Below, piece by piece: positions 3,293 to 18,529 of a stretch of DNA of 46,964 nucleotides. This stretch comes from Archangiaceae bacterium. Its GTDB lineage: Bacteria > Myxococcota > Myxococcia > Myxococcales > Myxococcaceae. Numbering within the stretch: position 1 is the stretch's first letter; the number at the start of each line of letters is the position of its first letter. Location of the stretch: assembly GCA_016879935.1 (NCBI GenBank), contig JAACJQ010000274.1, positions 1 to 46,964 on the forward strand. Direction: 5' to 3'. The notes below the pieces were generated by a model. That model did not search any database and was not told where the DNA came from. It saw only the letters and a program-made list of their open reading frames with translations. Position numbers and translations under genes: made by a program.

Positions 3293-3330
3293 GAATGAAA
3301 ACGGCGTGCCCTCGCTGGAGGACACGCCGT
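3293..3330 (-). terminator. Rho-independent terminator closing the glt operon
   Basis: On the minus strand ACGGCGTG and CACGCCGT (3323-3330 and 3301-3308) form a perfect 8-bp stem. A U-G wobble and a CCTC/GAGG inner stem around a CAGC loop extend it to about 13 bp. The run TTTTCATT follows. It lies 23 nt after the gltG stop. Confidence 0.85.
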
Positions 3331-3353
3331 CGGTGCATCAGGAACGGGAGCGG

Positions 3354-5195
3354 TTACTCGCCGCTCTCGTCACCAGCCGCCTTGAAGATCCAGGGGAAGG
3401 TGACGTTCACGATGCCGCCGCCGTCAGGCTCCGGGAACTTCCAGCGGCGAATGCGCTGGAGGATGCAGCTCTCGACGTTGGCGTTGCCGATGGAGCTCTC
3501 GGAGACGGCGGCCTCAGAGACGCCACCGCTCGGGTCGATGGTCCACGCGACCGCGACCTTGCCCGCGAGGGCGGGGTTCGCCTGCAGCTCCTGCTCGTAG
3601 CAGAACTTGATTTCGTTCTGGTGGCGCTTGATGACCTTCATGATGACGTCCTTGTCGAGGCCACCGACGACGGTCGTCTTGCCGGGGATGATGCGGGTCG
3701 TGCCCTTCCCCTTGCCACCCAGGTCGATGGAGCCGTAGCCACCCGCGCCGCGCCCGCCGCCCTTCGTGCCGAGACCGCCGAGGCCGAGGCCGTTACCGCC
3801 GCCGCCGGCGCCAGCGCCACGCGAACCGAGACCACCGACGCCCTGCGCATCACCAACGCCAGCGCCGCCCTGGAGACCGCCGAGCGCGTTGTTGATGCCC
3901 GTGCCGAGACCACCGGGGCCGAAGACGTTCGACGACGCGCCGCCAGCGAACATGCCGGCCATCAGCGAGCTGACCTTCTTGCGGTCTTCTTCACGCTTGT
4001 TCACGTCGACGACGGGAGCGCCCTTCTTCGAAGGATCGGCGTCGGGCTTCTTCGCGTCCTGCTTGCCGAACTTGCCTTCCTTCTCTTTCGCCTTCTCGCC
4101 TTCCTGAACGCCCGACTTGTCCTGGAACTTCTTCACTTCCTGCTTCTTCTCGGGCTTGACCACCATCTTCACGTACTTGGACGGGTTGGCGAAGATGTCG
4201 TCTCCGTCGCCACCCTCGCCCATCGGCGTGATGATCATCGCCGCGACGAGGGCGATGAACGCCATGACGCAGATGCTGGTGATCTTGAAGAACGTGAAGT
4301 CGTGCTCATCGAGGGTGTTGAGGCTGATGGCAGCGCTCGGGCGCACGTAGCGAACGATGAAGGCCACCTGCTCGAACGAAACCTGAGCGCGATCGTGAAG
4401 GCCGATCTCGACGGCGTCGGCGCGAACACCACCGTCGGCCGCCTTCAGCTTGCCTTCGCCCTTGAGCTGCTCCTTCGACTTGTGGCTGTCGCCCTTCGTC
4501 GAGACGATGACGCCGGCCTCGGAGGGGACGTTCACGACAGCGCTGCTGCCCTTGCCCTGCGTGAGCGTGAAGAGGTCGCCGACGCCAGGAGAGAAGACGT
4601 TGAAGCGAGCCTGCGCGTTCTCACCGACGGTGACGGGAACGCCTTCACCGAAGTGCTGAACGTTGATGAGGGTATCGCCCCACAGCAGTGCGACCTGGAG
4701 GATCTTCTCGGTCTCGGTCGGGATCGCTTCGGCAGGGAGCGGCTCGGTGAAGAGGGCCGCCGCGTTCTTGCCCGTGCCAGCGAGGGCGCGCGGAGCGTCC
4801 TTCTTGGCCTTCTTGTCCTTCTTCTTCTCGTGCTTCGACTCCGACTTGGCTTCGGCCTTCGGCTCTTCCTTCTTGGCCTCGACCTTCGCGTCGCCGTTCT
4901 TCAGCACGACCTTGACCTTCGTGCCGCCGATCTCGAGCACCTCGCCCGACGTGATCGGCTTTTCCTTCACCGTCTCGTTCGAGATCTTCGTGCCCTCGGC
5001 CGATCCGAGATCCATCACGATGAGCTTGCCGTCGTTGGCGACCTTCACCATGCAGTGAAGGTTCGACACCTTCGGATCAGTGACCTTCACGTTCGCAGAG
5101 TCACCCGAGCCGAGAATGATGCTCTCGAGCTCGGAGGTGGACTCGGAGACCTTGCCATCGGGGCTGGTGATCTCGAAGGTGACCTTGTTCGCCAT
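3354..5195 (-). CDS. gltG: GltG-like FHA / AgmX-PglI C-terminal domain inner-membrane protein
   Basis: A 613-residue protein with the build of M. xanthus GltG and NfsG. Residues about 20-100 form an FHA-like fold, followed by a Lys/Glu-rich linker (105-135), a second globular region (145-290), one membrane helix (about 302-323), a charged periplasmic stretch, a Gly-rich hinge (415-500) and a TonB-like AgmX/PglI C-terminal domain (515-605). Family members link a cytoplasmic regulatory domain to periplasmic partners of the gliding or spore-coat machine. The FHA is atypical: the usual GR is LGS (28-30), S44 and H47 are kept, and the usual TNG is AEG (66-68). ATG 5195 has a GAGG ribosome site about 7 nt upstream. 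It is the last gene before a strong terminator. Glt and Nfs paralogues cannot be told apart from motifs. Confidence 0.8.
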   Translation of the reverse strand: MANKVTFEITSPDGKVSESTSELESIILGSGDSANVKVTDPKVSNLHCMVKVANDGKLIVMDLGSAEGTKISNETVKEKPITSGEVLEIGGTKVKVVLKNGDAKVEAKKEEPKAEAKSESKHEKKKDKKAKKDAPRALAGTGKNAAALFTEPLPAEAIPTETEKILQVALLWGDTLINVQHFGEGVPVTVGENAQARFNVFSPGVGDLFTLTQGKGSSAVVNVPSEAGVIVSTKGDSHKSKEQLKGEGKLKAADGGVRADAVEIGLHDRAQVSFEQVAFIVRYVRPSAAISLNTLDEHDFTFFKITSICVMAFIALVAAMIITPMGEGGDGDDIFANPSKYVKMVVKPEKKQEVKKFQDKSGVQEGEKAKEKEGKFGKQDAKKPDADPSKKGAPVVDVNKREEDRKKVSSLMAGMFAGGASSNVFGPGGLGTGINNALGGLQGGAGVGDAQGVGGLGSRGAGAGGGGNGLGLGGLGTKGGGRGAGGYGSIDLGGKGKGTTRIIPGKTTVVGGLDKDVIMKVIKRHQNEIKFCYEQELQANPALAGKVAVAWTIDPSGGVSEAAVSESSIGNANVESCILQRIRRWKFPEPDGGGIVNVTFPWIFKAAGDESGE

Positions 5196-5265
5196 GGGGA
5201 CCTCGGTGACGCGACTGCTGGGGTGAAGGTGAAGCGGTTGTCCGTCCGGCCGACGGAGAGAACTT

Positions 5266-5529
5266 TCAGAGGTTGTCGACAGACTTCTGCAGCTCGGGGT
5301 TGAAGTTGTCGCGCACCTTGATCAGCGTGCGGAACGTCGTCTTCTTCTTGCTGACGGAGTAGCTGCCTTCGGGCTTGGTGAGTTCGCCTTCGACGGCGAC
5401 GTCGGTGAAGTCGATGACCGTCTTCTTGCGCGTCACGACGCGGTCGGCTTCACGAATGACCTTGTCCTGAGCGAACGAGGGGGCCGCGATGGCCGTGACC
5501 ACTGCAATCACCATCAAGAAACGCTTCAT
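5266..5529 (-). CDS. gltF: Small exported protein in the GltF position
   Basis: An 87-residue protein with a clear signal peptide (MKRFLMVIAVVTAIAAPSFA, then Q) and a short basic mature part ending in VDNL. The start is set by GGAGG at 5534-5538, four bases before ATG 5529; the frame is open upstream but reads as low-complexity Arg-rich shadow. It lies between the GltE-like and GltG-like genes, where the small GltF or NfsF component would be expected. The symbol rests mainly on position, size and the signal peptide, since I see no diagnostic motif. The gap to the gltE stop is 154 nt and to gltG 70 nt. Confidence 0.7.
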   Translation of the reverse strand: MKRFLMVIAVVTAIAAPSFAQDKVIREADRVVTRKKTVIDFTDVAVEGELTKPEGSYSVSKKKTTFRTLIKVRDNFNPELQKSVDNL

Positions 5530-5533
5530 GCTG

Positions 5534-5538
5534 CCTCC
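5534..5538 (-). promoter_or_regulatory. Ribosome binding site fixing the gltF start
   Basis: GGAGG on the minus strand with a 4-nt spacer to ATG 5529. It picks this internal ATG over the longer open frame reaching 5772. Confidence 0.75.
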
Positions 5539-5666
5539 GTGCGCCCCTGTGGACAGCTGTGGCAGGGGCCGGGTTCCTGAAAAGTTGGCGGACACTAGGG
5601 GATCAGCGAGTCGTTTGGAAGACCACCAAAGCGCCGAATTGTCCACTTTCGACGCCACCCCGAATC

Positions 5667-5683
5667 TTCTCAAGCGCTGAGAA
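5667..5683 (-). repeat. Post-stop hairpin element, copy A
   Basis: On the minus strand TTCTCAGCGCTTGAGAA follows the gltE stop codon directly. TTCTCA and TGAGAA can form a 6-bp stem. Sixteen bases of it recur inverted at 16000-16015, also just after a stop codon in the same locus. No U-run follows, so it is not a canonical terminator. Confidence 0.6.
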
Positions 5684-7087
5684 TTATGGCTTCTTCTCTT
5701 CGGCCTTGGGGGCTTCAGCGGGCTTCGCCTCTTCAGCCTTCGGAGCCTCTTTCGGGGCGTCCTTCGGTGCATCGGCCTTGGGCGCTTCGGCCGGTGGCGT
5801 GGTGGTCGCGGGAGGCGTCGTCGCGCCGTTGGGAGCGGCGGGATCGGCCGGCGCCGGATCAGGAGCCTTCTCGGCCTCCTGCTCGGCCTTGTCGAGCATC
5901 GACGGGCCGGTGGGCGCCGCAGGCTTCGGCTTCTCCGGAGCGGGCTGGGCAGCCTGCTGACCCGACTTCTGCATCGCGAGAATGCCCTTCACCTTGTTGT
6001 CGATCATCTGCTGGTCCTGGGCAGAGGTGGTCGACAACGCCTTGCACTTCTCGAAGAAGCCGAGCGCCTTGTCCCAGCCGGTCTTGTCGGCGGCGTAGGC
6101 CCAGGCCGCGCCGCACACGGCGTCGTTCTGGTCGGACTTGAGCGAGAGCACCTTCTCGAACACTTCGCCGGCCTTGAGGCCCTTCTTGGCGTCTTTGCCC
6201 TTCTGGCCGTCGAGCGCCCACGCATACGCGAGGAAGTTCTCGTAGCGGGTCGGGTCGAGCTCGGTGGTGCGACCGAGGTTCTTCTCGGCCGTGAGGTAGT
6301 CACGGTAGCTGAGCGCCATCGCGCCGATGTTGAAGAGGCTGGGCGCGAAGTCTTTGTTGAGGCTCACGGCCTTCTGGAACTGGGCGAGCGCGAGGCGCTT
6401 CTCCTGCTGCTGCAGGTAGATGAGGCCGAGGTTGTTGTAGTCGCCCGGATCCTTCTCATCGAGCTTCTTGGCGTTGATCGAGATGAACTGCGCGAGCGGC
6501 AAGTTGCCCTGATCGAAGTAGATGAGCGCGAGGTTCTTGTACGCGTCGGGGTTGTCCTTCGTGCGCGAGAGCACGCGACGCGCCGTCTCTTCGGCCTTCG
6601 CGTAGTTCTTGGCCAGGCGGTAGGCGACCGTGAGGTTGTTGTTCAGCTCGACGTCGAACTCGTTGTCCTTCAGCGCCTCTTCGTACAGCGCGATCGCCTC
6701 GGCGAACTTGTCCTGGAGGCGGTAGACGCGCCCGAGGTTGAGCAACGTCGGCTTGTGCTTCGGGTCGATCTTGTGAGCGGCCTCGTAGCGGGTCTGCGCA
6801 TCGGTGAGCCGGCCCTGCCGCTCGGCGATGACGCCCAGGTTGTACTGGGTGACCATGCTGGCGGGCACCTTGTCGGCGACCTTGGTGAAGAGCGTGTTGG
6901 CCTCGTCGAGGTTGCCGCTGTCGAACGCAGCGACGCCCTTGTCGAAGTTCTCCTTCGCACTGGGCAGCTTCGGGGGCGGGGGCGGCGCGACAACGACGTC
7001 CTTCTTCTCCTCGACCTTCGTGGTGGTGCACGCGGTGAGGCCGGAGGCGGTGGCGACGATGGTGAGGGCAGCGATCTTGAGCTTCAT
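5684..7087 (-). CDS. gltE: GltE (AglT)-like TPR lipoprotein
   Basis: A 467-residue lipoprotein. The signal peptide ends in a lipobox-like LTAC (Cys20), followed by a Pro-rich spacer. About eight TPR-like helical repeats run from residues 45 to 330, with typical motifs such as YNLGVIAERQGR, LNLGRVYRLQDK and YNNLGLIYLQQQ. The C-terminal hundred residues are a low-complexity Pro/Ala/Lys/Glu tail. In M. xanthus GltE (AglT) and NfsE are TPR proteins of the trans-envelope motility or spore-coat complex. ATG 7087 follows the gltD stop by 32 nt, with AGGAA upstream, which indicates co-transcription with gltD. Confidence 0.8.
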   Translation of the reverse strand: MKLKIAALTIVATASGLTACTTTKVEEKKDVVVAPPPPPKLPSAKENFDKGVAAFDSGNLDEANTLFTKVADKVPASMVTQYNLGVIAERQGRLTDAQTRYEAAHKIDPKHKPTLLNLGRVYRLQDKFAEAIALYEEALKDNEFDVELNNNLTVAYRLAKNYAKAEETARRVLSRTKDNPDAYKNLALIYFDQGNLPLAQFISINAKKLDEKDPGDYNNLGLIYLQQQEKRLALAQFQKAVSLNKDFAPSLFNIGAMALSYRDYLTAEKNLGRTTELDPTRYENFLAYAWALDGQKGKDAKKGLKAGEVFEKVLSLKSDQNDAVCGAAWAYAADKTGWDKALGFFEKCKALSTTSAQDQQMIDNKVKGILAMQKSGQQAAQPAPEKPKPAAPTGPSMLDKAEQEAEKAPDPAPADPAAPNGATTPPATTTPPAEAPKADAPKDAPKEAPKAEEAKPAEAPKAEEKKP

Positions 7088-7119
7088 GGGCTGTGTTCCT
7101 TGTCTCTCTCGTCGTCGAT

Positions 7120-10100
7120 TCAGCGGCTACCAGCGCCAGCGGCCGGAGCCGCTGCGCTCGGGGCAGGCGTCGTGGGCGCCGGAGCGACCTTCTGCTCCTC
7201 GGGCTCGGTCGGCAGCGGCGCGTCGTTCGCGGGAGGCTGCTTCTCGAAGCCGGACGTCACGAAGAACTCCGACCCACGGTATGAGACGTCTCGCGTCTTG
7301 CCGTAGGTTCCCGGCTTGTACTTGTTGAGCTTGTCCTGCGCGAGGAGCGTCCACTCCGTGTAGAGCGTGAGCTCGGTCGACTTCGCGAGCGCCTTCTCGA
7401 ACGCTTCAACCGACTTCTCTTCGAGGGGGAAGATGTACCGGTTCTCGATTTCGCCGCGGAAGATGTCGAGCTGATCCTGGTCGAAGCCGGGCGGGTCGGG
7501 CAGCTCCACGAGGCTGGTCGCGAGGTCGGAGTACAGCAGGCCGATTCGCGTGAGCGCCGCGATGCCGTAGTCGGGGTTACCGATGGTCAGCACTTCGGTG
7601 TAGCTCTTCTCGAGCTCAGACAGCGTCTTCTGCTTCGCGGGCAGGTCCTTCTTGAAGGTCTTGATCGACTTGAAACGGAACGCCGTGTACGAGTTCCACG
7701 TCGGCTCGAGCTGGAAGAAGCGCGTGTGCGCCGCCGCGAGCATCGCGCGGTCGTTCTTCTTCTCTTCGTCCTTCATCTTGGGGAACGACGTCGTGATGTC
7801 CTTGGCGAGGCGATCCATGCCCGCCGAGTCCTTCAGCTTCTGCGCGATGAGGAACTGACGGTACTTGATGTCGATCTTCCGCGTGTCGGTGACGCGGGGA
7901 TCCTTCGCGTAGGTGGTGAGGAACGTGTCGTAGTGCTTGGTCGCGTCGGCGAGCTGGTTGGTCTTCTCGAGCACCAGGCCGATGTTGAACGCGATCTCAG
8001 GAGCGTCCTTCTTGTCCTTGAAGCGCGTGACGTAGCGCTTGTACGCAGCGATGGCCTTGTCGAACTTGCCGACGCCCTCGTACCAGAAGCCGGCGTTGTA
8101 CTGAGCGTCGGCCACCCACTCCGCCGCCGCCTTCTTCTGTGCCTCACGCTCGGTCTCGAGCGCCTTGATCTCGTCGTTCGTCACCGCTGAACCGTCCGGC
8201 CACTTCGCGCCGGCCTTCGGCAGCTGGAACGTCGTCACGACCGTGGTCTTGGGCAGCTCCTTCTTGGCCGCTTTCGCCGCCTTCTCGGCCTTCTCGCGGG
8301 CGTCCTTCTCGTCCTTGAGCAGCTGCTTGATGTTCTCGTAACCGACCGCCTTGTCGCCGGCGGCCATGTCGTAGGTCGCGATGAAGTTCTCGTACATCGC
8401 GGCCGACTTCTCGAAGCTGGCGAGCTTCTCGTAGAAGAACGCGAGGCCGTTCTTCACGCGCAGGTCGAACATCGAGTCGGCGTACTCCTTGAGAATGCGC
8501 TCACCGATCTCGATCGACTTGTCCTGCTCGTTGGCTTCACGCGAGATCTCCATCGCGTACACCATCGCGCGGGCGGCGTTCTTCGAGTTGGGGAACTCCT
8601 TCTGGAAGTCGAGGAACAGGTCGCGGGCCTTCTTCACGTCCTTGTCCTTCTTGTAGATGATCTCGTCGACGTACTTGTACTGCGAGCCTTCGACGACGTT
8701 GGCGACGCGCGACTTGAAGTCAGGCTTGGCCTTGGCCATCAGCTTGGTGTTCGCCTTGAAGAGGCGGGCCAGCTTGTTCAGCTCGAGCCACTCTTCCTTC
8801 TCTTCGAGCACGCCCATCGACAGGTCGGCAGCGTCGGCCGAGCGGCCCTCTTCGGGGTACTTGTTGATGATGTCGCCGAAGCGGCGGGCGGCTTCGACGA
8901 AGTGGTTCTTGTCGTAATAGATGACGGCCGCCTGGTAGGCGATGTCGACCTCTTCGGCCGTCTTCGGGTACAGCTGGTTGTACTTGTCGCACGCGGCGAT
9001 CAGCGCCTGCTCGTACTTGGTGATCGGCTTCTCCTCGAGCTCCTTGATCGTGCGCTTGGTGACCTTCTTCGACTTCTCGACCTTGTCCTTCTTCTTGGTC
9101 TCTTCGACGAGCTTGTCGTCCTTCAGGTCGCTCTTCTGGAGCAGGCCGCGCTCGATCTTCACCAGCTTGTCGTACGAGAGAATCGCGTTGTACGCGGCGG
9201 TCTGACGGTACTTCTCCTGGCTGATCTCTTTCGCCTCGGGGCGGTTCGGAATCTTGAACGCGGTGACCTGATCGTACTGGGTGGCCGCGGCCTCCCACTC
9301 CTCGAGGGCCCAGAGAATTTCGGCGTAGTAGTACTTGAGGTTGAAGGCGTGGTCCGAGACGAACTGCTCGTCTTCCGAGACCGCGAAGCCGTCGACGTAC
9401 TGCTTGTAGATGTCGCGGGCGAGGCGGTACGTGACCACCTGCTTCGTCTTCTGCGCCTCGTTGTGGTACTCGGTGACGGTCGTGCGCATCGCCTCTTCGG
9501 CGACGTTGAAGCCGTTGCGGAGCACGTCCTTCTTCGACTTGTTCGCTTCCCACCAGCTCGAGCCCGGCCGGTAGAGTTCGGCGAGCTTCTTCACTTCGGC
9601 CTTCACGTTGTCGCGCTGGCGCAGGCCTTCGTACGACTTGATGACCGCCTGCTGGAAGTCAGGCGCCGCTTCCGAGTTCGGGTTGTCGTTGAGCAGGTAG
9701 CGGAACGACTTGATGGCGTTGTCGTGGTGACCGGCCTCCTGCATGCCGTAGGCGAGCTTGCCGATGAGGTTGGTCTGCTTCTTCTTGCCGGCCTTCGCCT
9801 TGTAGTAGGCGATGGCATCGTCGGCGCGGTTCAGCTGAACGAACATGCGAACCGAGTCCTGGAGGGCTTCGTTCTTGAGGTCGGTGAAGACGCGCTCTTT
9901 GCCGGCGCCGGCCTTCTCGGCGATCTCGACCGTGTCCTGCAGCTTCTTGAGCGCCTTCTCGTGCTCGCCCGCGTTGAAGTCACACCAGGCCAGCTTGTAG
10001 AGCGCGTACGACTTGATGCGCGGGTTGCTCGTGGCGAACGCCTTCTCGAAGTAGCTGCGCGCCTTCTCGAGCACGTTGGCGACGTCGAAGTAGTGGTTGC

Positions 10101-10800
10101 CGAGCTGCACGTACGTGTCGGGCACGAACTTCGAACCCGGGTAGCTCTTGAGCAGCTCTTCGTAGCGCTTCACGGCGCCGTCGCGCTTGCCCGTCTCGTA
10201 CAAGTTGTACGCGAGGTTGAAGAGCACCTCGTCTTTGCGCTCGTACGACGGGTACTCGCGGAGGATCGTCTCGTACAGACGCATCGTCTCGGAGCGATAG
10301 AGCTCGGACTCGCGGTGATCTTCCTTGGGCTCCGACACCTTCTCGCCGCGGTTCTTCTTCTCGTCGGCGTCCTTCTGCTGCTCGAAGTACTTCAACATCT
10401 CGCGGCGGTAGAGGTAGCGCGACTTGTCCCAGTAGAGCTCGGCGAGCTGGAACAGCAGCTCGGACTTCTGCGGGTTGCCGTCTTCGATCTTCGGGATGAT
10501 CTTCTTCGCCGACTCGATCTGCTCGTCGCGCTTCTTGTCGGCGATGGCTTCACGCTCGACGTCTTCGACCTTGGGCGTCTCGCGCGCCTCGAGCTTCGCA
10601 GGGCCCTTGCGCTCCTCGGGCTTCTTGGCCGCGGCTTCAGCGGCCTTCTTCGCAGCCTCGGCGGCCTTCGGGTCGGTCTTCGCCGCGGCGGGCGCCTTCG
10701 CCCCACCCTTCTTCGCAGCCTGCGCGTTGGCGTCGATCGAGCTCAGCAGCATCGCTGCGGCTGACATGGAAGTGAGCAGTCGGGAGTGAAACAGCTTCAT
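7120..10800 (-). CDS. gltD: GltD (AgmU)-like giant periplasmic TPR protein
   Basis: A 1226-residue exported protein, about the size of M. xanthus AgmU/GltD. An N-terminal signal peptide ends near DANAQA. An Ala/Lys/Pro-rich segment (residues 28-75) follows, then an almost continuous array of TPR/HEAT-like helical repeats, including YETILREYPSYERKDE, YEELLKSYPGSKFVPD and FGDIINKYPEEGRSAD. The last 40 residues are a Pro/Ala/Thr-rich tail. Known homologues form the periplasmic scaffold between the inner-membrane motor and outer-membrane partners. ATG 10800 has GGAG six bases upstream. A probable terminator at 10883-10916 lies between gltC and this gene, so it likely has its own promoter in 10801-10882. 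Confidence 0.85.
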   Translation of the reverse strand: MKLFHSRLLTSMSAAAMLLSSIDANAQAAKKGGAKAPAAAKTDPKAAEAAKKAAEAAAKKPEERKGPAKLEARETPKVEDVEREAIADKKRDEQIESAKKIIPKIEDGNPQKSELLFQLAELYWDKSRYLYRREMLKYFEQQKDADEKKNRGEKVSEPKEDHRESELYRSETMRLYETILREYPSYERKDEVLFNLAYNLYETGKRDGAVKRYEELLKSYPGSKFVPDTYVQLGNHYFDVANVLEKARSYFEKAFATSNPRIKSYALYKLAWCDFNAGEHEKALKKLQDTVEIAEKAGAGKERVFTDLKNEALQDSVRMFVQLNRADDAIAYYKAKAGKKKQTNLIGKLAYGMQEAGHHDNAIKSFRYLLNDNPNSEAAPDFQQAVIKSYEGLRQRDNVKAEVKKLAELYRPGSSWWEANKSKKDVLRNGFNVAEEAMRTTVTEYHNEAQKTKQVVTYRLARDIYKQYVDGFAVSEDEQFVSDHAFNLKYYYAEILWALEEWEAAATQYDQVTAFKIPNRPEAKEISQEKYRQTAAYNAILSYDKLVKIERGLLQKSDLKDDKLVEETKKKDKVEKSKKVTKRTIKELEEKPITKYEQALIAACDKYNQLYPKTAEEVDIAYQAAVIYYDKNHFVEAARRFGDIINKYPEEGRSADAADLSMGVLEEKEEWLELNKLARLFKANTKLMAKAKPDFKSRVANVVEGSQYKYVDEIIYKKDKDVKKARDLFLDFQKEFPNSKNAARAMVYAMEISREANEQDKSIEIGERILKEYADSMFDLRVKNGLAFFYEKLASFEKSAAMYENFIATYDMAAGDKAVGYENIKQLLKDEKDAREKAEKAAKAAKKELPKTTVVTTFQLPKAGAKWPDGSAVTNDEIKALETEREAQKKAAAEWVADAQYNAGFWYEGVGKFDKAIAAYKRYVTRFKDKKDAPEIAFNIGLVLEKTNQLADATKHYDTFLTTYAKDPRVTDTRKIDIKYRQFLIAQKLKDSAGMDRLAKDITTSFPKMKDEEKKNDRAMLAAAHTRFFQLEPTWNSYTAFRFKSIKTFKKDLPAKQKTLSELEKSYTEVLTIGNPDYGIAALTRIGLLYSDLATSLVELPDPPGFDQDQLDIFRGEIENRYIFPLEEKSVEAFEKALAKSTELTLYTEWTLLAQDKLNKYKPGTYGKTRDVSYRGSEFFVTSGFEKQPPANDAPLPTEPEEQKVAPAPTTPAPSAAAPAAGAGSR

Positions 10801-10882
10801 TGCGGCTCCTGTCGGAGTTGAGGCTTTGCCGAAGTGGTGTTGTCGGCTGAAAACGGCGCGGACCCTACACCACGGGTTTGAT

Positions 10883-10916
10883 GGAAAGAAAGGGTGCCAG
10901 CCGTGGCCAGCACCCT
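10883..10916 (-). terminator. Probable intrinsic terminator or attenuator between gltC and gltD
   Basis: On the minus strand AGGGTGC...GCACCCT (10910-10916 and 10891-10897) form a 7-bp stem. Two G-U wobbles and two G-C pairs extend it to 11 bp around a CACG loop. TTCTTTCC follows. It lies 56 nt after the gltC stop and splits the locus into A-B-C and D-E-F-G halves. Confidence 0.7.
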
Positions 10917-10972
10917 CTGAATCACGAGCATTTCGGAAGGCTTGGACGCCCTCCGAGCTGCGTTGGTTCTGC

Positions 10973-12511
10973 TCAGTTCTTGCCGACCGGGCAGCCCTTC
11001 TTCAGCGTGTACTGGTAGTAGCCGATCTCATCGCGCCAGAACTCGCCCTGGAAGCGCCAGTAGTTCCAGTTCTCGGCGGGCATCTGCGGGCGGTAGAGCG
11101 TCTGCTTCTTCAGCAGCGAGTTCTGATCGCTGCCCGACTCAGCGAACTCCTTCTCGGCCTTGGCGACCTCGAAGCGAATGATCTCGGCCTGGTCACCGAA
11201 GCCCTTGATGGTGCGGTAGGCCTCCTGAATGCGGTTCTTCGCGGTCTGGCCGGCGACCTGCTCGAGCGTGCCGCGGTTCTGGTCGAGGTACGAGATGAGC
11301 TCGTTCGACAGCTTCGCGCTCTTCCACGACTGAATGCCATCGATGGTGGCCTTCTCGGAGTCGATCGCCTTCAGCATCGAGAACAGGCCGAGCATGCGCT
11401 CGTTCGAACGAACCCAGTTCAGCACCGGCTTCGGCAGCTTGTCGGAGTCGGTCGTGTCGACGAGCTTGAAGAAGTAGGCGTTGTCCTTCGCTTCGCCTTC
11501 GACGATGGGCTTCAGGGCTTCGGCCATGGGCAGGTAGATCTTCTCGTACTCCACCAGCGCCGACTTCGACTCCTCGTACAGGCAGGCGAAGTAGTAGATC
11601 GTGGAGGTCAGAATCCACGACTCGGGCTGGAAGGCGCCCGCGAACTGCGGAGCGTAGAGTGCCTGGAGCGAGCCGAGGCCGCCGCCGTAGTCGTCGTTCT
11701 GGAAGCGGGCGAAGCCGTTCTCGAACAGCGACAGATCCCAGTACTTCGAGAAGCGAGGAATCTTCTCGTACGCCTTGGTCGACTTGTCGAAGTTGCCGAG
11801 GCCGTAGTTCACGCGGCCGAGGCCCAGGTTCGCGAGCTGCTGAATCTCGGCGAGATCGAGCATCTTCGCGCGCGGGTCGATCTTCAGCACCTTCTCGAAG
11901 ATCTCGACCGCCTCTTCCTGGTGCTTGCGCTTCTCGTCTTCGCTCGTCGCCGGGTAGCGCGGGTCGGAGAGCGCGATGCCCTGCAGGTAGAGCGCCTTCG
12001 CATAGACCTGGCTCGTATCGGGAACGGCGTCGAGGAACTGCTTCGACTCGTCGAGCTTGCCGCGGCGGTGCGAGATGCGGCCGATGAGATAGTTGATGCG
12101 CGAGAGCACCTCGAGCGGGAGCGTCGCCCACGCCTCGGCGTACCGGTCGTAGAGCTTCTCGAGCTGCGAGGGGATCAGGTAGTCGTCGTTGAGCTGCTCC
12201 TGCAGCGTCACCAGCGCCTCGACGGCCTTGCCGTGGAACGGGTGCGACGGCCCAGCCTTCACGATCGGGCTGTAGAACACGAACGCGGTGAACGGCAGGT
12301 TCTGCCGCTGGAAGCTCGAGGCGAGGTAGTACTCGGCCTTGAGCTTGAGATCGTTGTCCGTCGTCGTGTTGTAGACGTCGAAGAACAGGCGAGCGGAGTC
12401 TTCGAACGACCCGCCGTTATAGGCCGACAGCGCCTTGTTGTAGGTGGCCAGGTCCTGAGCTGAGGCGATGGCCGCGGTCAGCAGTGCAACGAGCGTGAGT
12501 GCGCGAGTCAT
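10973..12511 (-). CDS. gltC: GltC (AgnA)-like periplasmic TPR protein
   Basis: A 512-residue exported protein with a signal peptide (MTRALTLVALLTAAIASA, then Q) and TPR-like repeats through the middle, for example YNGGSFEDSARLFF, YLIGRISHRRGKLDES and LGLGRVNYGLGNFDKS. The C-terminus is aromatic (WNYWRFQGEFWRDE) and carries one Cys (KKGCPVG). In M. xanthus GltC is a soluble periplasmic TPR protein that associates with the GltA and GltB barrels, and NfsC is its spore-coat paralogue. I chose ATG 12511 because it lies 12 nt after the gltB stop; a GTG three codons earlier is possible. Gene order A-B-C supports the name. Confidence 0.75.
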   Translation of the reverse strand: MTRALTLVALLTAAIASAQDLATYNKALSAYNGGSFEDSARLFFDVYNTTTDNDLKLKAEYYLASSFQRQNLPFTAFVFYSPIVKAGPSHPFHGKAVEALVTLQEQLNDDYLIPSQLEKLYDRYAEAWATLPLEVLSRINYLIGRISHRRGKLDESKQFLDAVPDTSQVYAKALYLQGIALSDPRYPATSEDEKRKHQEEAVEIFEKVLKIDPRAKMLDLAEIQQLANLGLGRVNYGLGNFDKSTKAYEKIPRFSKYWDLSLFENGFARFQNDDYGGGLGSLQALYAPQFAGAFQPESWILTSTIYYFACLYEESKSALVEYEKIYLPMAEALKPIVEGEAKDNAYFFKLVDTTDSDKLPKPVLNWVRSNERMLGLFSMLKAIDSEKATIDGIQSWKSAKLSNELISYLDQNRGTLEQVAGQTAKNRIQEAYRTIKGFGDQAEIIRFEVAKAEKEFAESGSDQNSLLKKQTLYRPQMPAENWNYWRFQGEFWRDEIGYYQYTLKKGCPVGKN

Positions 12512-12523
12512 GAAGGTCACCGA

Positions 12524-13642
12524 TCAGAACAGGAACGAGATGCCGGCGTAGAGGCCGACGTTGTTGAGCACGTCCGACGAGGGGTTGCGGACGAGGCCGA
12601 GCGCGAGGGGCACGTCGTTGGAGCGCTTGAGGCCCGTGTCGGGGTCGGTGCCGTCGAAGGTGTCGACGCGGCAGGTCGCGCCGACTTGCGCGCTGGTGAC
12701 CGGGCGGCCACCACGCAGGGCGTTGTCCATCGCGCGCAGGTCTTCCGAGCCGCAGCCGTTCACGCGCTCGACGCGCGCCGTGTAGACGACGTCACGAACC
12801 TCGAGGCGGAAGGCGAAGCGCTGACCGAGCTGAAGGCGAAAGCCCGCGCCCAGGCCGGCCATGAAGCGGTAGCCCGTGTCGCCGTACGTCGCAGGCGAGA
12901 TCGAGCCGTCCGGGCGGGCGCTCTCGGGCTTGAGCTGGTGGCGGGTGCCGCCGATGCCGGCGCCGCCGTTGAGCACGAACGAGAACTGGGCGAGCGTGCC
13001 TTCGAAGAAGGCGAACTTGCCGTAGATGGGCGTCACTTCGACGCCGCCCAGCACGCCCCACGTCCACAAGAGCGACGAGGCCGCCTGGGCTTCGACGCGG
13101 GCCTTCTCGACGAGCTCGCCGTTGAGCGACGACTCCGAGTTGAACCAGTTGCCGCCGCCCGTGATCATCAGGCCGAAGTTCTCCTGCAGGTGGTAGGTGA
13201 GCTGGCCCATGGTGCCGAAGTGCTGGGTGAACTTGCCGTTCACCTGCACCGACACGGGGTACAGCGTCACCTCGAAGCGGCCCGAGTCAGAGAAACGCTT
13301 CTGCTCGACGATGTGAACGCCGACGTTGGGGTTGAAGAGCGGAGCGCCGTTCACCAGCTTCATCTGCTCGGCCGAGCCTCCGGTCGTCGTGGTCGCAGGC
13401 GTCGCCACCGTCGGAGTGGCGGCAGGCGTGGTGGTGGTGGCTGCGGGCGTCGTCGTGGTCGCCGCCGGGTCGGGCTTCTTGTCCGGCGTGGGCGTCGGGT
13501 TCGCCGGCGGATCATCTTCGTCGTCATCGGCAGCGGCCGGAGCCTGGCCCAGAACGATTGACGGCTGAACGAAGGCGGGCGCCGCGAAAGAACGGCCGGC
13601 CGCGAGGAACGTGAGGGCTGCGAGGAGGAAAGTCGTGCGCAT
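12524..13642 (-). CDS. gltB: GltB-like predicted outer-membrane beta-barrel protein
   Basis: A 372-residue exported protein. A signal peptide is followed by a low-complexity acidic then Pro/Thr/Ala-rich linker (about residues 38-90). The remaining 270 residues have the alternating hydrophobic pattern of a transmembrane beta-barrel and end in the aromatic terminus GISFLF that barrel-assembly machinery favours. GltB is one of the integral outer-membrane barrels of the M. xanthus gliding complex, with NfsB as paralogue. It lies 14 nt after gltA and 12 nt before gltC, so the three are clearly co-translated. The name rests on fold and gene order; residue-level similarity could not be tested. Confidence 0.7.
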   Translation of the reverse strand: MRTTFLLAALTFLAAGRSFAAPAFVQPSIVLGQAPAAADDDEDDPPANPTPTPDKKPDPAATTTTPAATTTTPAATPTVATPATTTTGGSAEQMKLVNGAPLFNPNVGVHIVEQKRFSDSGRFEVTLYPVSVQVNGKFTQHFGTMGQLTYHLQENFGLMITGGGNWFNSESSLNGELVEKARVEAQAASSLLWTWGVLGGVEVTPIYGKFAFFEGTLAQFSFVLNGGAGIGGTRHQLKPESARPDGSISPATYGDTGYRFMAGLGAGFRLQLGQRFAFRLEVRDVVYTARVERVNGCGSEDLRAMDNALRGGRPVTSAQVGATCRVDTFDGTDPDTGLKRSNDVPLALGLVRNPSSDVLNNVGLYAGISFLF

Positions 13643-13656
13643 GGTGGGTGACGTCC

Positions 13657-14445
13657 TCAGAAGACGAAGCTGTAGCCGAGGTCGATCTGGCTGATCGTGC
13701 TGATGCCGGCGTTCGGCGACTGCATGCCGCCAGCGGTGGGGTTCGCCGCGCTGACGTTCGCGCGATCGACGTTGACCCAGTAGGAGTCGAGGAAGGACCA
13801 GGTGCGCGCCTCGAGACGAACGGCGTGCTTCTCGGTGATGAAGAAGCGGAAGCCGAGCGCGAGCGACACGATCGGGCTCACCTTGGTCTCGGTGAAGTAC
13901 TGGCCGCAGCCGCTGCCAGTGCGCTGCAGACAGATGAGCAGCGACTCGCGGTTGAACAGACCCGCGCCGCCGCCAGCCCAGAGGTAGAGCTGGAAGTGAA
14001 CGGGCAGCTCGGCGAGCAGGTTGATCTTGCCGTAGATGGGCTGGAACCGAATGCCGACGATGCCGTTGGCCGTCATCTGCCAGAGGTCGGAGAAGTCATT
14101 GATGCGCGGCAGGTTCATCTGGGTGAGGAACGCCTCCTTCACCTGATCGGCGAGCGAGGTCTGCCGCGAGATCGCGTAGCCGGCGCGCAGCTCGATCGCG
14201 AACCACTCGGCCACGTTGTACGCGGCAGAGATGTTGAGGTTGTAGTGGTCGGTCAGGCGCGGGAGCAGCGTGAAGCCGACGTTGCCGCCAACCTCCCACC
14301 GCTTCTCGACCAGGTAGAGCCGGTTGCGCACGGCAACCTTCTCGACGAGCTCGGCCTCGTCCTCCGCTGACTGGGCCCACGCGCTGCTGCTGGCCAACAT
14401 CGCCAGACACAGCGCACTCATCTGCAACACGTTTCGAACGCTCAT
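13657..14445 (-). CDS. gltA: GltA-like predicted outer-membrane beta-barrel protein
   Basis: A 262-residue exported protein with a signal peptide (MSVRNVLQMSALCLAML..SAWA) and a mature part of alternating hydrophobic strands (NVGFTLLPRLT, FAIELRAGYAIS, VSLALGFRFFI) ending in GYSFVF, a typical barrel C-terminus. ATG 14445 has GAGG about 7 nt upstream and lies 11 nt after the stop of the VWA gene. The longer open frame reaching 14688 overlaps that gene and is not used. GltA and GltB are paired barrels in the known machine, and both have a segment near PIYGK, which suggests they are related to each other. Confidence 0.7.
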   Translation of the reverse strand: MSVRNVLQMSALCLAMLASSSAWAQSAEDEAELVEKVAVRNRLYLVEKRWEVGGNVGFTLLPRLTDHYNLNISAAYNVAEWFAIELRAGYAISRQTSLADQVKEAFLTQMNLPRINDFSDLWQMTANGIVGIRFQPIYGKINLLAELPVHFQLYLWAGGGAGLFNRESLLICLQRTGSGCGQYFTETKVSPIVSLALGFRFFITEKHAVRLEARTWSFLDSYWVNVDRANVSAANPTAGGMQSPNAGISTISQIDLGYSFVF

Positions 14446-14456
14446 GGCACCTCGGC

Positions 14457-15911
14457 TCAAGGACAGGTCGTCTGGAAGTTGGCGAGCACGTCGTAACAAA
14501 CCTCGACCGTGCTCAAGGATTCGGTCACCGAGGTGCCCTCGAAGCGGACCATGTTGCGAAGGCCCGCGAGATCGCACTGCACATACTGGGCGCCGTTCGC
14601 CGGCCCGTCGGTTCGAACTTCGAGCCGCCGCGCACACCGACCATTGCGGCAGAACTGATCGACGGGGCAGTTGCCGTCGACCTGGCACATCATCGAGTTC
14701 GGAGGCGACACGAACGCCTCGATGCCGCGGGCGACACCGGCGGCTGCCCGAACGTCAGGGCCACGGGTGAGCCTGAACTCGCGGCGCAGGCCCGAAGCCG
14801 AGAAACCGAGCGACGCGAGGGCGCCGGAGAAGTCGTCCTGGCAGATGTCGACCGCCACCCCACCCGTCTGCGCGGCGACCTGCACGTAGCGGCCGCCGAA
14901 GTAGGCGATCTCGAGGCCACCGTCGTTCGTCCCGCTCGTCGGGCAACCTGCATCGCGATCGCGCGAGTTGCGGCAGCACCCGACGTGCGGGCTGGGGTCG
15001 CCGAACTGCGAGGGCACGCCGGAGTCGGGATCGATCGCGGTGATCGCGGCGACCGCCACGGCCTCACCGTTTCCGTAGCCTTTGAAGGTCTCGAAGAAGC
15101 GCGTGAAGTACGCGGTGGAGCCCCAGTTGCCAGCCGCAGTGAGAATCTGGTCGTTCGCGCAGCGGCAACCGGGGTCGGCGCTGCACACGGGCTGCCGCGT
15201 GAGCGGCGTACACGACGAGTCATCTTCGTCAGAGACGAACACGACGTAGAGCGCAGCCTCGGGGCGAACGAAGCGCACGACCGCGTCGGTCGAGACGTTG
15301 AGCGGGTTGGTGAGCGCGAGATAGGCGGCGAAGAGACCACGCTCCTGCGGGCTGCCATTCGTGCCGACCTGCGCCATCTGGTTGAACGCCATCACCGCAG
15401 TCGAGGTGTTGCCGCCGGTGTTGCAAGTCACGGCGCCGGCCATGTCGGGCGCGCACGAGATGAAGTCGTCACGCAGGGCACCGAGGCTCCACTGACGCAG
15501 CTTGCCGCGCGTCGCCGGATCATCGGTGTCGGTGGTGGTGACGGCGATGTGAAAGTCGATGGGCGGCATCGCGGCGACGAGCTGGTTGATGAAGCCCTGG
15601 AAGTTGGCGGCGAGGCGCTGCTGCTTGGGGCCCATCGAACCCGACGAGTCGACCACCCAGAGAATGTCGACCTTGCGAACCGAGAGCTGCGTGTACGTGT
15701 CGCACTGGCGCGGAACGTTGACCGAGAAGTTGTCGGTCGCGCGCGTCGGATCAGTGTCGACGGAGGGCGCCTTCTCATCGACGCTCGGCGTGCCCGGAAC
15801 GACGACGAAAGATTCGACGATGCGGCGCGTTTTCTGGACGTCTTTGCACGCAGCCATCGCCACGGCGAGCGAAGCCAGAAAGACAAAGAGCCTGACAGCA
15901 GAGGCGCGCAT
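14457..15911 (-). CDS. VWA-domain, Cys-rich predicted lipoprotein (CglB-type adhesin candidate)
   Basis: A 484-residue exported protein. The signal peptide ends in VAMAAC (Cys22), a slightly imperfect lipobox. A von Willebrand A domain starts near residue 80, with the metal-site motif DSSGS (D88, S90, S92) and later VVFVSDED (D228). There are 19 cysteines, many in the C-terminal half (CQVDGNC, CRNGRC). In M. xanthus the VWA lipoprotein CglB is the surface adhesin of gliding focal adhesions. Its position 11 nt upstream of gltA makes a CglB-like role attractive, but VWA domains are common and I cannot show orthology. The 112-nt leader (15912-16024) holds a hairpin element. Confidence 0.8.
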   Translation of the reverse strand: MRASAVRLFVFLASLAVAMAACKDVQKTRRIVESFVVVPGTPSVDEKAPSVDTDPTRATDNFSVNVPRQCDTYTQLSVRKVDILWVVDSSGSMGPKQQRLAANFQGFINQLVAAMPPIDFHIAVTTTDTDDPATRGKLRQWSLGALRDDFISCAPDMAGAVTCNTGGNTSTAVMAFNQMAQVGTNGSPQERGLFAAYLALTNPLNVSTDAVVRFVRPEAALYVVFVSDEDDSSCTPLTRQPVCSADPGCRCANDQILTAAGNWGSTAYFTRFFETFKGYGNGEAVAVAAITAIDPDSGVPSQFGDPSPHVGCCRNSRDRDAGCPTSGTNDGGLEIAYFGGRYVQVAAQTGGVAVDICQDDFSGALASLGFSASGLRREFRLTRGPDVRAAAGVARGIEAFVSPPNSMMCQVDGNCPVDQFCRNGRCARRLEVRTDGPANGAQYVQCDLAGLRNMVRFEGTSVTESLSTVEVCYDVLANFQTTCP

Positions 15912-15999
15912 CGGTGTCGTCGAGGGTGCGCGGTGCTAGCACACCCACCTTCGGAAGAAACAGGCAGTTTTTCAGCTCACAGTGAATGAAGTGCGCGGG

Positions 16000-16015
16000 T
16001 CTCAGCGCTTGAGAA
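16000..16015 (+). repeat. Post-stop hairpin element, copy B
   Basis: TCTCAGCGCTTGAGAA is identical to the minus strand of 5667-5682. In the direction of transcription here (minus) it lies 9 nt after the stop of the 77-Cys lipoprotein gene and can form a TCTCA/TGAGA stem. The rest of 15912-16024 shows nothing else I can name. Confidence 0.55.
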
Positions 16016-16024
16016 AAGCGGGGC

Positions 16025-17809
16025 TCATCCGTCTTGCAGTGCGGGAGGCAGACAGGCCTGCACGGAGCGGCTGTCGACGGTGGCCAGCGTCTGACAGAGC
16101 CAGTCCTTCGGGCACTCCGTGTCGGACGTGCAGGGCTGGGTGCAGATCGGGCCGGAGTCTTTGCGAATGCAAAGCCCCGTCTCGCAGGCGGCTGGGCCGA
16201 AGGTGCAGCTCGCACCGGCGCCACCACCGCCCGAGGGGAAGCAGACGTCGACGGTCTGATCGGACGCCGTCGAGCGCTGCGCTTTGCGGCACGCGAAGCC
16301 CTGGGGGCAGGTGCCGTTGGTGCAGGTGACGCTGCACACGCGCGCGGTGCCGAGGTCGAGGCAGGCACCCGACTGACACGGCGGCCGGCCCGGCGTGCAG
16401 TCGTCTCCGAAGAGGCCACCGATCGGCGCGCAGACGCCCATGCCCGAGGCCGGGCCGTCGTTCGTGCGCTTCTCGGCGGCACAGTCGTAGCCATTCGCCG
16501 AGGCCTCACAGCATCGGTACCGGGTGTCACCGCACTGTGAGTCCTTCGTGCAGGTGTTCGAGCAGAACGCGTTGACGCCGGCCTTCACGCAGACGCCGGT
16601 GAGGCAGTCGAACGCGCCGTTTGCGTTGCAGTCTTCGCCGAGGCGCTTGAGGCCACCCTTGCAGGAGCCACGCTGCGGCATGCAGTACTTCCGCGTCGGC
16701 CCCGTCGGGTCCGTCACGTCCTTGCAGACGAAGCCCGTGCCGTAGGAGCGCACGCACGCCGCGTCGTCGAGGCACGGGGTCGAGCAGAACGACTCTCCCT
16801 TGAAGGGGCAAGCGGCGCAGTCGTTCACGATGCAGCGGTTCTCGGTGAAGCCGCCGCGACGGCAGTCATCGTTGTTGCTGCACGGAGAACACTGGCGGCC
16901 ATCGAGCGCGGGCTGGCAGGTGCCGGCCTGGCAGAGCTTGCCGATGCCGCACTGGTTCGACAGCTGGCCCTGATCACGCGTCGGGTCGCAGTAGCCCTTG
17001 CAGGTGTTCGAGTTGGGCACGCACTGGTAGGGGCCTTTGCCACCTTCAGCCGAGGGTGACTTCAGGTTCACGCACGAGAACCCAGAGGGGCACTCGGGGT
17101 TCTGCGCCGAGTCGAGCGACTTCGGGTCACACGCTCCTGCCGGGCACACGTTCTTGGCCGGGTTGCAGTCGCGACCGCAGAACTGCTCACCCGAGACGAT
17201 GTTGCGAACGCAGAGATCGAATGGGCCGCCGCACTCGTCATCTCCGGAGCACGCGTCGCAGAGGGCCCGGCCGGCGTTGCAGGTCTCGTTCGTCGGCACG
17301 CACTGCTTGATCAGGGCGTTCTCTTTGCCGGCGGGAATTTCACGGCACGAGGAGCCCGAAGGGCAGGCGTCATTGGCACCGCATGGGCCCGTGCAGAACT
17401 GCTCTCCGGAGCCGATCGCTTTGAAACAGGCCCCGCCCGTCGGGCACTGCGAGACGTCCTGACAGGGGGAGCAGAGCGCGCGCGAGACGGCGATGTAGCA
17501 GTTGCCAGACTCGGGGTTGCAGGTGTGGCCGGCGGGGCAGTCGACGTTCGTCTTGCAGCCCGACAGCCTCTTGCAGATCTTGCCGTACCGCCCTGCCCCT
17601 TCGCAGACGAAACCGTCGGGGCAGGTGTCGGTACAATTGCTCGTACAGAAGCCCGATTGATCGTCGAGCGCGATGCACAGCCCGTCACGGCACTGGGCAA
17701 GGGGGTCGTTCGGTGTGCACGGGTCGCCGAGGTTGAGGAGCGTGACTCGACTCGTCGAGCCACACCCCGCAGCCAGCACCACGAGAGCGATGGTGAGAAC
17801 GCGAAGCAT
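16025..17809 (-). CDS. Lipoprotein with tandem disulfide modules, 77 cysteines
   Basis: A 594-residue protein with a good lipobox (LAAGC, Cys16) and 77 cysteines (13%). The mature part is about seven imperfect repeats of the pattern G-x-x-C, C-x-x-G-x-C, then F-C-x-x-x-C and C-P-x-G-x-x-C. It resembles the Cys-rich repeat lipoproteins frequent in myxobacteria and has no catalytic motif. ATG 17809 has GGGGAGAG upstream. It is the first gene of the glt-type locus, next to the VWA gene, so a surface or adhesive structural role is likely. It could correspond to the outer-membrane lipoprotein GltK of the known system, but I cannot verify that and leave the symbol empty. Confidence 0.85.
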   Translation of the reverse strand: MLRVLTIALVVLAAGCGSTSRVTLLNLGDPCTPNDPLAQCRDGLCIALDDQSGFCTSNCTDTCPDGFVCEGAGRYGKICKRLSGCKTNVDCPAGHTCNPESGNCYIAVSRALCSPCQDVSQCPTGGACFKAIGSGEQFCTGPCGANDACPSGSSCREIPAGKENALIKQCVPTNETCNAGRALCDACSGDDECGGPFDLCVRNIVSGEQFCGRDCNPAKNVCPAGACDPKSLDSAQNPECPSGFSCVNLKSPSAEGGKGPYQCVPNSNTCKGYCDPTRDQGQLSNQCGIGKLCQAGTCQPALDGRQCSPCSNNDDCRRGGFTENRCIVNDCAACPFKGESFCSTPCLDDAACVRSYGTGFVCKDVTDPTGPTRKYCMPQRGSCKGGLKRLGEDCNANGAFDCLTGVCVKAGVNAFCSNTCTKDSQCGDTRYRCCEASANGYDCAAEKRTNDGPASGMGVCAPIGGLFGDDCTPGRPPCQSGACLDLGTARVCSVTCTNGTCPQGFACRKAQRSTASDQTVDVCFPSGGGGAGASCTFGPAACETGLCIRKDSGPICTQPCTSDTECPKDWLCQTLATVDSRSVQACLPPALQDG

Positions 17810-17857: not shown

Positions 17858-18529
17858 TTACTTCTTGCCGCTCTTGTGCGCCGCGCGCATCGCCGACTTC
17901 ACCGCGGGCTTGATGACGACGAGGCCCTCGTTGTGGCCCGCGACGCCGCCCTTGATGAGGACGAGGTTCTTGTCGGCCAGCACGTCGGCGACCGTGAGGT
18001 TCTGGGTCGTGACCTGCTCGACGCCGTAGTGACCGGGGAGCTTCTTGTTCGGGTACACGCGGCCCGGCGTCTTACGCTGACCGATGGCGCCCGGGTGCTT
18101 GCGGTACTCGTGCGTACCGTGGGTCTGACCGAAGCCGCGGAAGCCCCAGCGCTTCACGACGCCCTGGTAGCCACGGCCCTTCGTGATGCCCGTGACGTCG
18201 ACCAGCTCGCCCTTCTTGAAGAGGGAGCCCGCGTTCACGGCCTCACCGATCTTGAAATTCGCCAGCTCGGCGGCCTCGACGCGGAACTCGCGGATGACGC
18301 GCTTCGCCTTCACGCCGGCCTTCTTGAACGAGCCAGCCATCGGCTTCGTCAGGTGCTTCTCCTTGGCGTCCTTGAAGCCGAGGATGACGGCCGTGTACTG
18401 ATCCTTCTCCATGGTGCGGTGACCGATCACCTCGCACGAGGTGATGTCGATGACCGTCACGGGAACGACGTTGCCTTCTTCATTGAAGACCTGCGTCATT
18501 CCGACCTTCTTGCCGATGAGACCCTTCAT
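17858..18529 (-). CDS. rplC: 50S ribosomal protein L3, outside an S10 operon
   Basis: A 223-residue L3 with the family signatures GLIGKKVGMTQVF at the N-terminus, DVTGITKGRGYQG near 111-123 and the HPGAIGQRKTPG loop near 145-156. L3 binds 23S rRNA and starts large-subunit assembly. ATG 18529 has AGGAAA just upstream; the longer frame to 18907 is not protein-like. In most bacteria rplC lies between rpsJ and rplD. Here its neighbours are a small exported protein and the 77-Cys lipoprotein gene 48 nt downstream. By hand alignment, the residue at the methylated Gln150 of E. coli L3 is Lys153. It may be the only copy or an extra paralogue. Confidence 0.95.
   Translation of the reverse strand: MKGLIGKKVGMTQVFNEEGNVVPVTVIDITSCEVIGHRTMEKDQYTAVILGFKDAKEKHLTKPMAGSFKKAGVKAKRVIREFRVEAAELANFKIGEAVNAGSLFKKGELVDVTGITKGRGYQGVVKRWGFRGFGQTHGTHEYRKHPGAIGQRKTPGRVYPNKKLPGHYGVEQVTTQNLTVADVLADKNLVLIKGGVAGHNEGLVVIKPAVKSAMRAAHKSGKK

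Follow-up and report, generated by a model that had tools for sequence, protein, structure and literature searches.

The locus examined here raises the question of whether a compact run of genes, which resembles both the gliding (Glt) and the spore-coat (Nfs) machineries of Myxococcus xanthus, is a gliding locus, a spore-coat operon or a third variant. It occupies positions 3354-17809 (minus strand) of the window, the whole 46,964-nucleotide stretch of contig JAACJQ010000274.1 from an uncultured Archangiaceae bacterium (assembly GCA_016879935.1; family Myxococcaceae). Comparison with other genomes of the order makes it nearly certain that the locus is orthologous to nfsA-G of Myxococcus, the operon for spore-coat transport, and its unusual part is the two lipoprotein genes at its head, which many relatives, known spore-formers among them, lack. 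An earlier note, made by reading the DNA without database searches, had described nine genes in an nfs-like order that stops after G, and had suggested a gltA-G locus in an older arrangement or a third variant; it did not single out the two lipoproteins as unusual. The genes and their upstream neighbour are as follows.

17858..18529, minus strand: rplC (ribosomal protein L3), the upstream neighbour, single copy in the genome
16025..17809, minus strand: Cys-rich lipoprotein with 77 Cys and lipobox LAAGC, 48 bp past rplC
14457..15911, minus strand: VWA/MIDAS-domain lipoprotein with lipobox AMAAC and a DSSGS motif, predicted integrin-beta-like VWA fold
13657..14445, minus strand: nfsA orthologue, outer-membrane beta-barrel, 262 aa, OMP_myx_plus family
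12524..13642, minus strand: nfsB orthologue, outer-membrane beta-barrel, 372 aa, OMP_myx_plus family
10973..12520, minus strand: nfsC orthologue, GltC-like periplasmic TPR protein, 515 aa (NfsC 512 aa, GltC 673 aa)
7120..10800, minus strand: nfsD orthologue, giant TPR protein, 1226 aa
5684..7087, minus strand: nfsE orthologue, GltE-like TPR lipoprotein, 467 aa
5266..5529, minus strand: nfsF orthologue, small exported protein of the CglF/GltF family, 87 aa
3354..5195, minus strand: nfsG orthologue with a cytoplasmic FHA domain, a transmembrane segment and a periplasmic AgmX/PglI TonB-like tail, predicted motor-contact protein

All nine genes past rplC were confirmed as open frames with a strong third-position guanine-cytosine (GC) bias, and the order given in the earlier note was borne out by synteny, as the locus forms one syntenic cluster, A-B-C-D-E-F-G. 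The intergenic gaps between the VWA gene and nfsC measure 3-14 bp, and the largest gap within the nine-gene set is 172 bp. The start codon read for nfsA is the ATG at 14445, 11 bp past the VWA stop; the two frames overlap only under a long-open-reading-frame reading of the first barrel. Both barrels belong to the TIGR04565 family (OMP_myx_plus), and the small exported protein is genuine, with an NCBIfam CglF match of 64.5 bits.

Assignment of the locus to the nfs system

The C protein was used as a query against 60 genomes of the order, and the loci were extracted as regions of at most 20 kb. The C and D trees were built without the long-branch rows and the G tree with all rows, with support given by the Shimodaira-Hasegawa-like approximate likelihood ratio test (SH-aLRT). 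In the C, D and G trees the window was placed in the Nfs clade (support 100, 100 and 97, respectively), apart from the Glt clade, which includes the window genome's own GltC, GltD and GltG. A first C tree that kept the divergent rows (contigs C143, C145 and C362 of the window genome, G000, and genome G031) had long branches and did not cleanly separate the two groups.

Sequence identity to the Nfs proteins of the Myxococcus-type genome G028, a single contig of 8,973,512 bases, was 43% for A, 49% for B, 49% for C, 48% for D, 45% for E, 64% for F and 46% for G, and the window C, D, E and G proteins were 25-32% identical to the Glt counterparts of their own genome. The window proteins failed the GltC, GltE, GltG and CglF equivalog cut-offs. 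Their scores, next to those of the G028 Nfs proteins, were 214 versus 211 bits with the GltC model (cut-off 450), 122 versus 121 bits with the GltE model (cut-off 225) and 321 versus 348 bits with the GltG model (cut-off 650). The trees and the equivalog scores together ruled out a glt identity for the locus.

The best G028 locus encodes A273-B441-C512-D1203-E499-F~94-G680-H200 aa, and its lengths from B to H agree with the published M. xanthus nfsA-H proteins of 294, 442, 512, 1202, 499, 94, 682 and 200 aa (Müller et al. 2010, PMC2875238). The window locus and M. xanthus nfsA-H (MXAN_3371-3378) are alike in the A-G order, the protein families and lengths, and the lack of a linked motor and of GltI/J/K paralogues. 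The upstream rplC is also common to both, as seen in the G028 locus L061. The window locus differs in its two lipoprotein genes ahead of nfsA, in a relocated nfsH, and in a shorter gap between rplC and the operon, 48 bp against about 390 bp.

Separate Glt and Agl loci of the window genome

The window genome (9.5 Mb, 445 contigs) was searched for gltH, gltI, gltJ, aglRQS and a second A-G set, as the earlier note had proposed, and all were located on contigs C86, C121 and C333. Contig C86 carries the order gltK-B-A-C, comprising gltK (CglC, 116 bits, cut-off 60), two barrels and gltC (940 bits, cut-off 450). Contig C121 carries gltD, gltE (579 bits, cut-off 225), gltF (129, cut-off 90), gltG (926, cut-off 650), gltH (CglE, 131, cut-off 70) and gltJ (587, cut-off 450), as well as a giant gltI-like frame. 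GltC, E, F, G, H, J and K of this genome therefore all exceed the NCBIfam equivalog cut-offs, and GltH, I, J and K adjoin these true Glt genes, not the window locus. The aglRQS genes are found on C333, where AglR, AglQ and AglS are 71%, 58% and 65% identical to those of G028; a second motor set on C269 reaches only 22-35% identity. As gltABC and gltD-J are present on other contigs in the standard layout, and the C, D and G phylogenies place the window proteins in the Nfs clade, the earlier proposal of a glt locus or a third variant does not hold.

The contig of the window was found to contain no GltH/NfsH gene, no second GltG-tail or GltJ-tail protein and no ExbD/AglQS-type motor gene. The earlier note was right that these genes are missing nearby; however, this does not make the cluster a truncated glt locus, and NfsH is encoded on another contig. 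The nfs operon of M. xanthus lacks paralogues of GltI, GltJ and GltK and depends on AglRQS, a motor encoded away from it (PMC3858216). The absence of I, J and the motor from the window locus is therefore normal, and H is the exception.

Contigs C143, C145, C362, C25 and C442 (L064-L068) of the same genome hold further divergent Glt/Nfs-like sets or lone GltG-like proteins, which may be compared with the M. xanthus G4 and G5 sets. Between gltE and gltF of this genome, at L063:8849-9097, lies a gene for another small exported protein of 82 aa that resembles GltF.

Displacement of nfsH

The nfsH gene does not directly follow nfsG in the window. Its orthologue was located on C329 at 10668-11246 (L133), with 57% identity to the G028 NfsH, which ruled out a loss of NfsH. 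A location away from the nfs locus was likewise observed in five of six congeners; the sixth, G004, gave no match. In genome G023, nfsG, nfsH and a gene for a 357-aa oxidoreductase are contiguous. In the genus of the window, the gene next to nfsG on its downstream side encodes an acyl-CoA dehydrogenase, and nfsH still lies beside its old oxidoreductase neighbour but is preceded by a carboxylase gene. Given that G023 has the full nfsG-nfsH-oxidoreductase run and nfsH of the window genus retains the oxidoreductase only, a rearrangement with its breakpoint between G and H explains the displaced nfsH. The nfs label was retained despite this displacement because the A-G orthology is firm and H is present in the genome.

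In the window, the acyl-CoA dehydrogenase gene that now follows nfsG is itself followed by genes for a 286-aa protein and a MeaB-like GTPase. Two local duplications were seen in other genomes, namely tandem nfsF-like copies in G042 (L080:17033-17608) and a second nfsG-like gene ahead of nfsH in G015 (L091:574-1737).

The Cys-rich and VWA lipoprotein pair

The Cys-rich and VWA genes occupy the interval between rplC and nfsA in the window. The pair was found in 20 of the 42 scored nfs loci, distributed over six families, and was missing from 22; both genes were always present or absent together. The order rplC - Cys-rich - VWA - A-B-C-D-E-F-G(-H) was observed in Myxococcaceae metagenome-assembled genomes and in families f2, f3, f6 (G040), f7 and f8, with rplC not observed adjoining in the f7 locus that has the pair. 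In the entire clade of G028, G012, G013, G016 and G019, together with its relatives, nfsA occurs without the pair, mostly directly after rplC (in G012 and G032, rplC is not adjacent to nfs). On a concatenated B-C-D-E-G tree, at least six changes are needed for this distribution, which is explained most simply by six joint losses, one of them in the Myxococcus/Cystobacter-type clade. A recent joint loss is seen in genome G018 (L086), which is without the pair although G021 and G023, its nearest kin, carry it. In two f7 genomes without the pair, a gene on the opposite strand fills the rplC-nfsA gap (L107:9915-12155 and L108:13390-15576); its start is possibly cyclic-nucleotide-binding-like.

A search of 30 genomes with the Cys-rich protein gave no match outside nfs loci save one weak partial match in G013, and 24 of the 30, G028 included, gave no match at all. 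A relocation of the pair in genomes lacking it was thus ruled out for the Cys-rich gene; for the VWA protein, pair-less genomes gave only short domain-level matches. A profile scan of the contigs with the Cys-rich protein returned strong matches at about 27 loci, every one of them in a metagenome-assembled genome. The orthologues keep 73-81 cysteines down to 45% identity, with most cysteine columns invariant. Identity of the pair is graded by kinship, from about 90% within the genus to 42-50% in other families, a pattern that looks vertical. Within the open-licence literature, we found no report of a VWA or Cys-rich gene at an nfs locus.

The predicted fold of the VWA protein is that of a VWA domain, with integrin beta subunits as the best PDB matches (E about 1e-8, low global template modelling score), and PDB sequence searches gave no match for either lipoprotein. 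The protein carries a DxSxS-type motif and a signal with lipobox, as do MIDAS/CglB-type adhesins, and its sole sizeable profile match was to the Bdellovibrio MIDAS adhesin model NF052240 (61 bits, cut-off 700). It has in common with CglB and the Bdellovibrio MIDAS adhesins (Bd0875) the architecture of a secreted VWA/MIDAS lipoprotein or adhesin, and differs from them in that its gene is part of an nfs operon and is always accompanied by the Cys-rich gene.

Linkage to rplC and the upstream spacer

Most loci of the order keep rplC linked to nfs, and most genomes of the G028 clade retain the link with a longer spacer. Given that rplC is present as a single copy in eight genomes, the idea of a special second L3 copy was rejected. 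In those loci of the G028 clade that could be measured, the basal G017 among them, approximately 268-449 bp separate rplC from the next operon gene. The corresponding spacer was 17-255 bp in every measurable pair-bearing locus and 58-72 bp in the pair-less f9 loci; two f7 loci with inserted genes were set aside from this comparison. In M. xanthus, the 323 bp upstream of nfsA drive sporulation-specific expression (PMC2875238). The long spacer is a trait of the G028 clade that probably arose in one event, and the correlation between spacer and pair therefore does not count as independent evidence at each locus. A scan for consensus promoters and terminators returned nothing above chance, a result of little weight in a GC-rich genome.

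Proposed mechanism and alternative explanations

In M. xanthus, Nfs works with AglRQS through a contact between AglR and NfsG and has a transport role (PMC3858216), and CglB, a VWA adhesin, depends on Glt for its recruitment and retention (PMC13104615). The window locus shares with M. xanthus Glt (gltA-K) and AglRQS a paralogous A-H core and the same predicted motor coupling through GltG/NfsG, and differs in falling in a separate clade within a genome that has its own complete standard Glt set. In the proposed mechanism, the proton-driven AglRQS motor, encoded elsewhere, would contact NfsG at the inner membrane, and NfsC, D, E and F would transmit force across the periplasm to the barrels NfsA and B, and possibly H. 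Together with the Cys-rich protein, its obligate partner, the VWA/MIDAS lipoprotein would form a surface-exposed grip on cargo, as CglB does for Glt, where the cargo may be polysaccharide, substrate or another cell. The pair would have been lost jointly several times, including in the Myxococcus/Cystobacter-type clade, where the machine moves spore-coat polysaccharide; it may have been dropped there once the machine was fixed on this polymer, and for other reasons in other lineages. As a whole, this reading, an nfs orthologue with its own CglB-like VWA surface adhesin and a later spore-coat specialisation, is in our judgement moderately probable.

The adhesin role and the ancestral function in it are inferred, and several points weigh against it. 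In a comparison made through profile models, no CglB-named model matched the VWA protein, and no sequence tie to CglB was found. The genome has about 17 VWA-domain matches, the VWA protein being one of them, the Cys-rich structure model is poor (predicted template modelling score 0.40), and searches with the Cys-rich protein yielded no useful PDB or Pfam relative. The loss counts presuppose an ancestral pair, to which repeated gain by transfer is the alternative.

A more specific and tentative proposal, which we put forward at less than even confidence, is that the ancestral Nfs was not a sporulation device but a vegetative surface machine whose own operon, transcribed behind rplC, encoded a VWA adhesin together with its Cys-rich partner. 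The spore-coat role would then have arisen in one clade only, after the loss of the pair and the gain of a spacer with a developmental promoter.

It is unlikely, if a little less so than the other alternatives, that this is a plain sporulation nfs operon doing spore-coat work as in M. xanthus, with the lipoprotein genes as unrelated neighbouring envelope genes. The firm nfsA-G orthology, the many Myxococcaceae in which the operon lacks the pair and the abundance of VWA lipoproteins in the genome are all consistent with this. However, the pair occupies the same site in six families and ends 11 bp from nfsA in the window, its members come and go jointly with the Cys-rich gene found nowhere else in the genome, and pair-bearing loci lack the long rplC-nfsA spacer that is the site of the M. 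xanthus sporulation promoter.

Repeated acquisition of the pair by horizontal transfer, instead of ancestry and loss, would suit its patchy presence (20 of 42 scored rows), but it is improbable given the constant insertion point, gene order and orientation and the grading of identity with kinship. A gliding locus gltA-G in an older compact order matches the families and order of the single glt clusters in Anaeromyxobacter-type genomes, but is very improbable and refuted as orthology, as the genome has its own complete, above-cut-off Glt loci and the trees part the two sets.

Evolution of the Glt and Nfs machineries

Single glt clusters have been reported in Anaeromyxobacter, along with paralogous sets G3 (nfs), G4 and G5 (Luciano et al. 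2011, PMC3169522), and the duplication of Glt and Nfs has been described as recent, in a terminal branch (Wartel et al. 2013, PMC3858216). We observed both sets in families f1, f6 and f9 as separate clades, which shows that Glt and Nfs diverged before the order radiated. In the Anaeromyxobacter-type genomes (L117, L118), the glt set forms one compact A-to-H cluster, likewise resembling the window locus; it differs in belonging to the Glt clade and in lacking the Cys-rich/VWA pair. It is plausible that one undivided A-to-H cluster was the earlier layout, and to this extent the earlier suggestion of an ancestral order stands, while the locus itself is an nfs orthologue.

The locus may provide an evolutionary bridge between two machines built of the same parts, one for gliding, which uses the VWA adhesin CglB, and one for spore-coat polymer, whose operon in Myxococcus encodes no VWA adhesin. 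Given the fact that nfs loci encoding their own VWA lipoprotein occur in many uncultured lineages, the question of what Nfs did before sporulation becomes one that can be asked.

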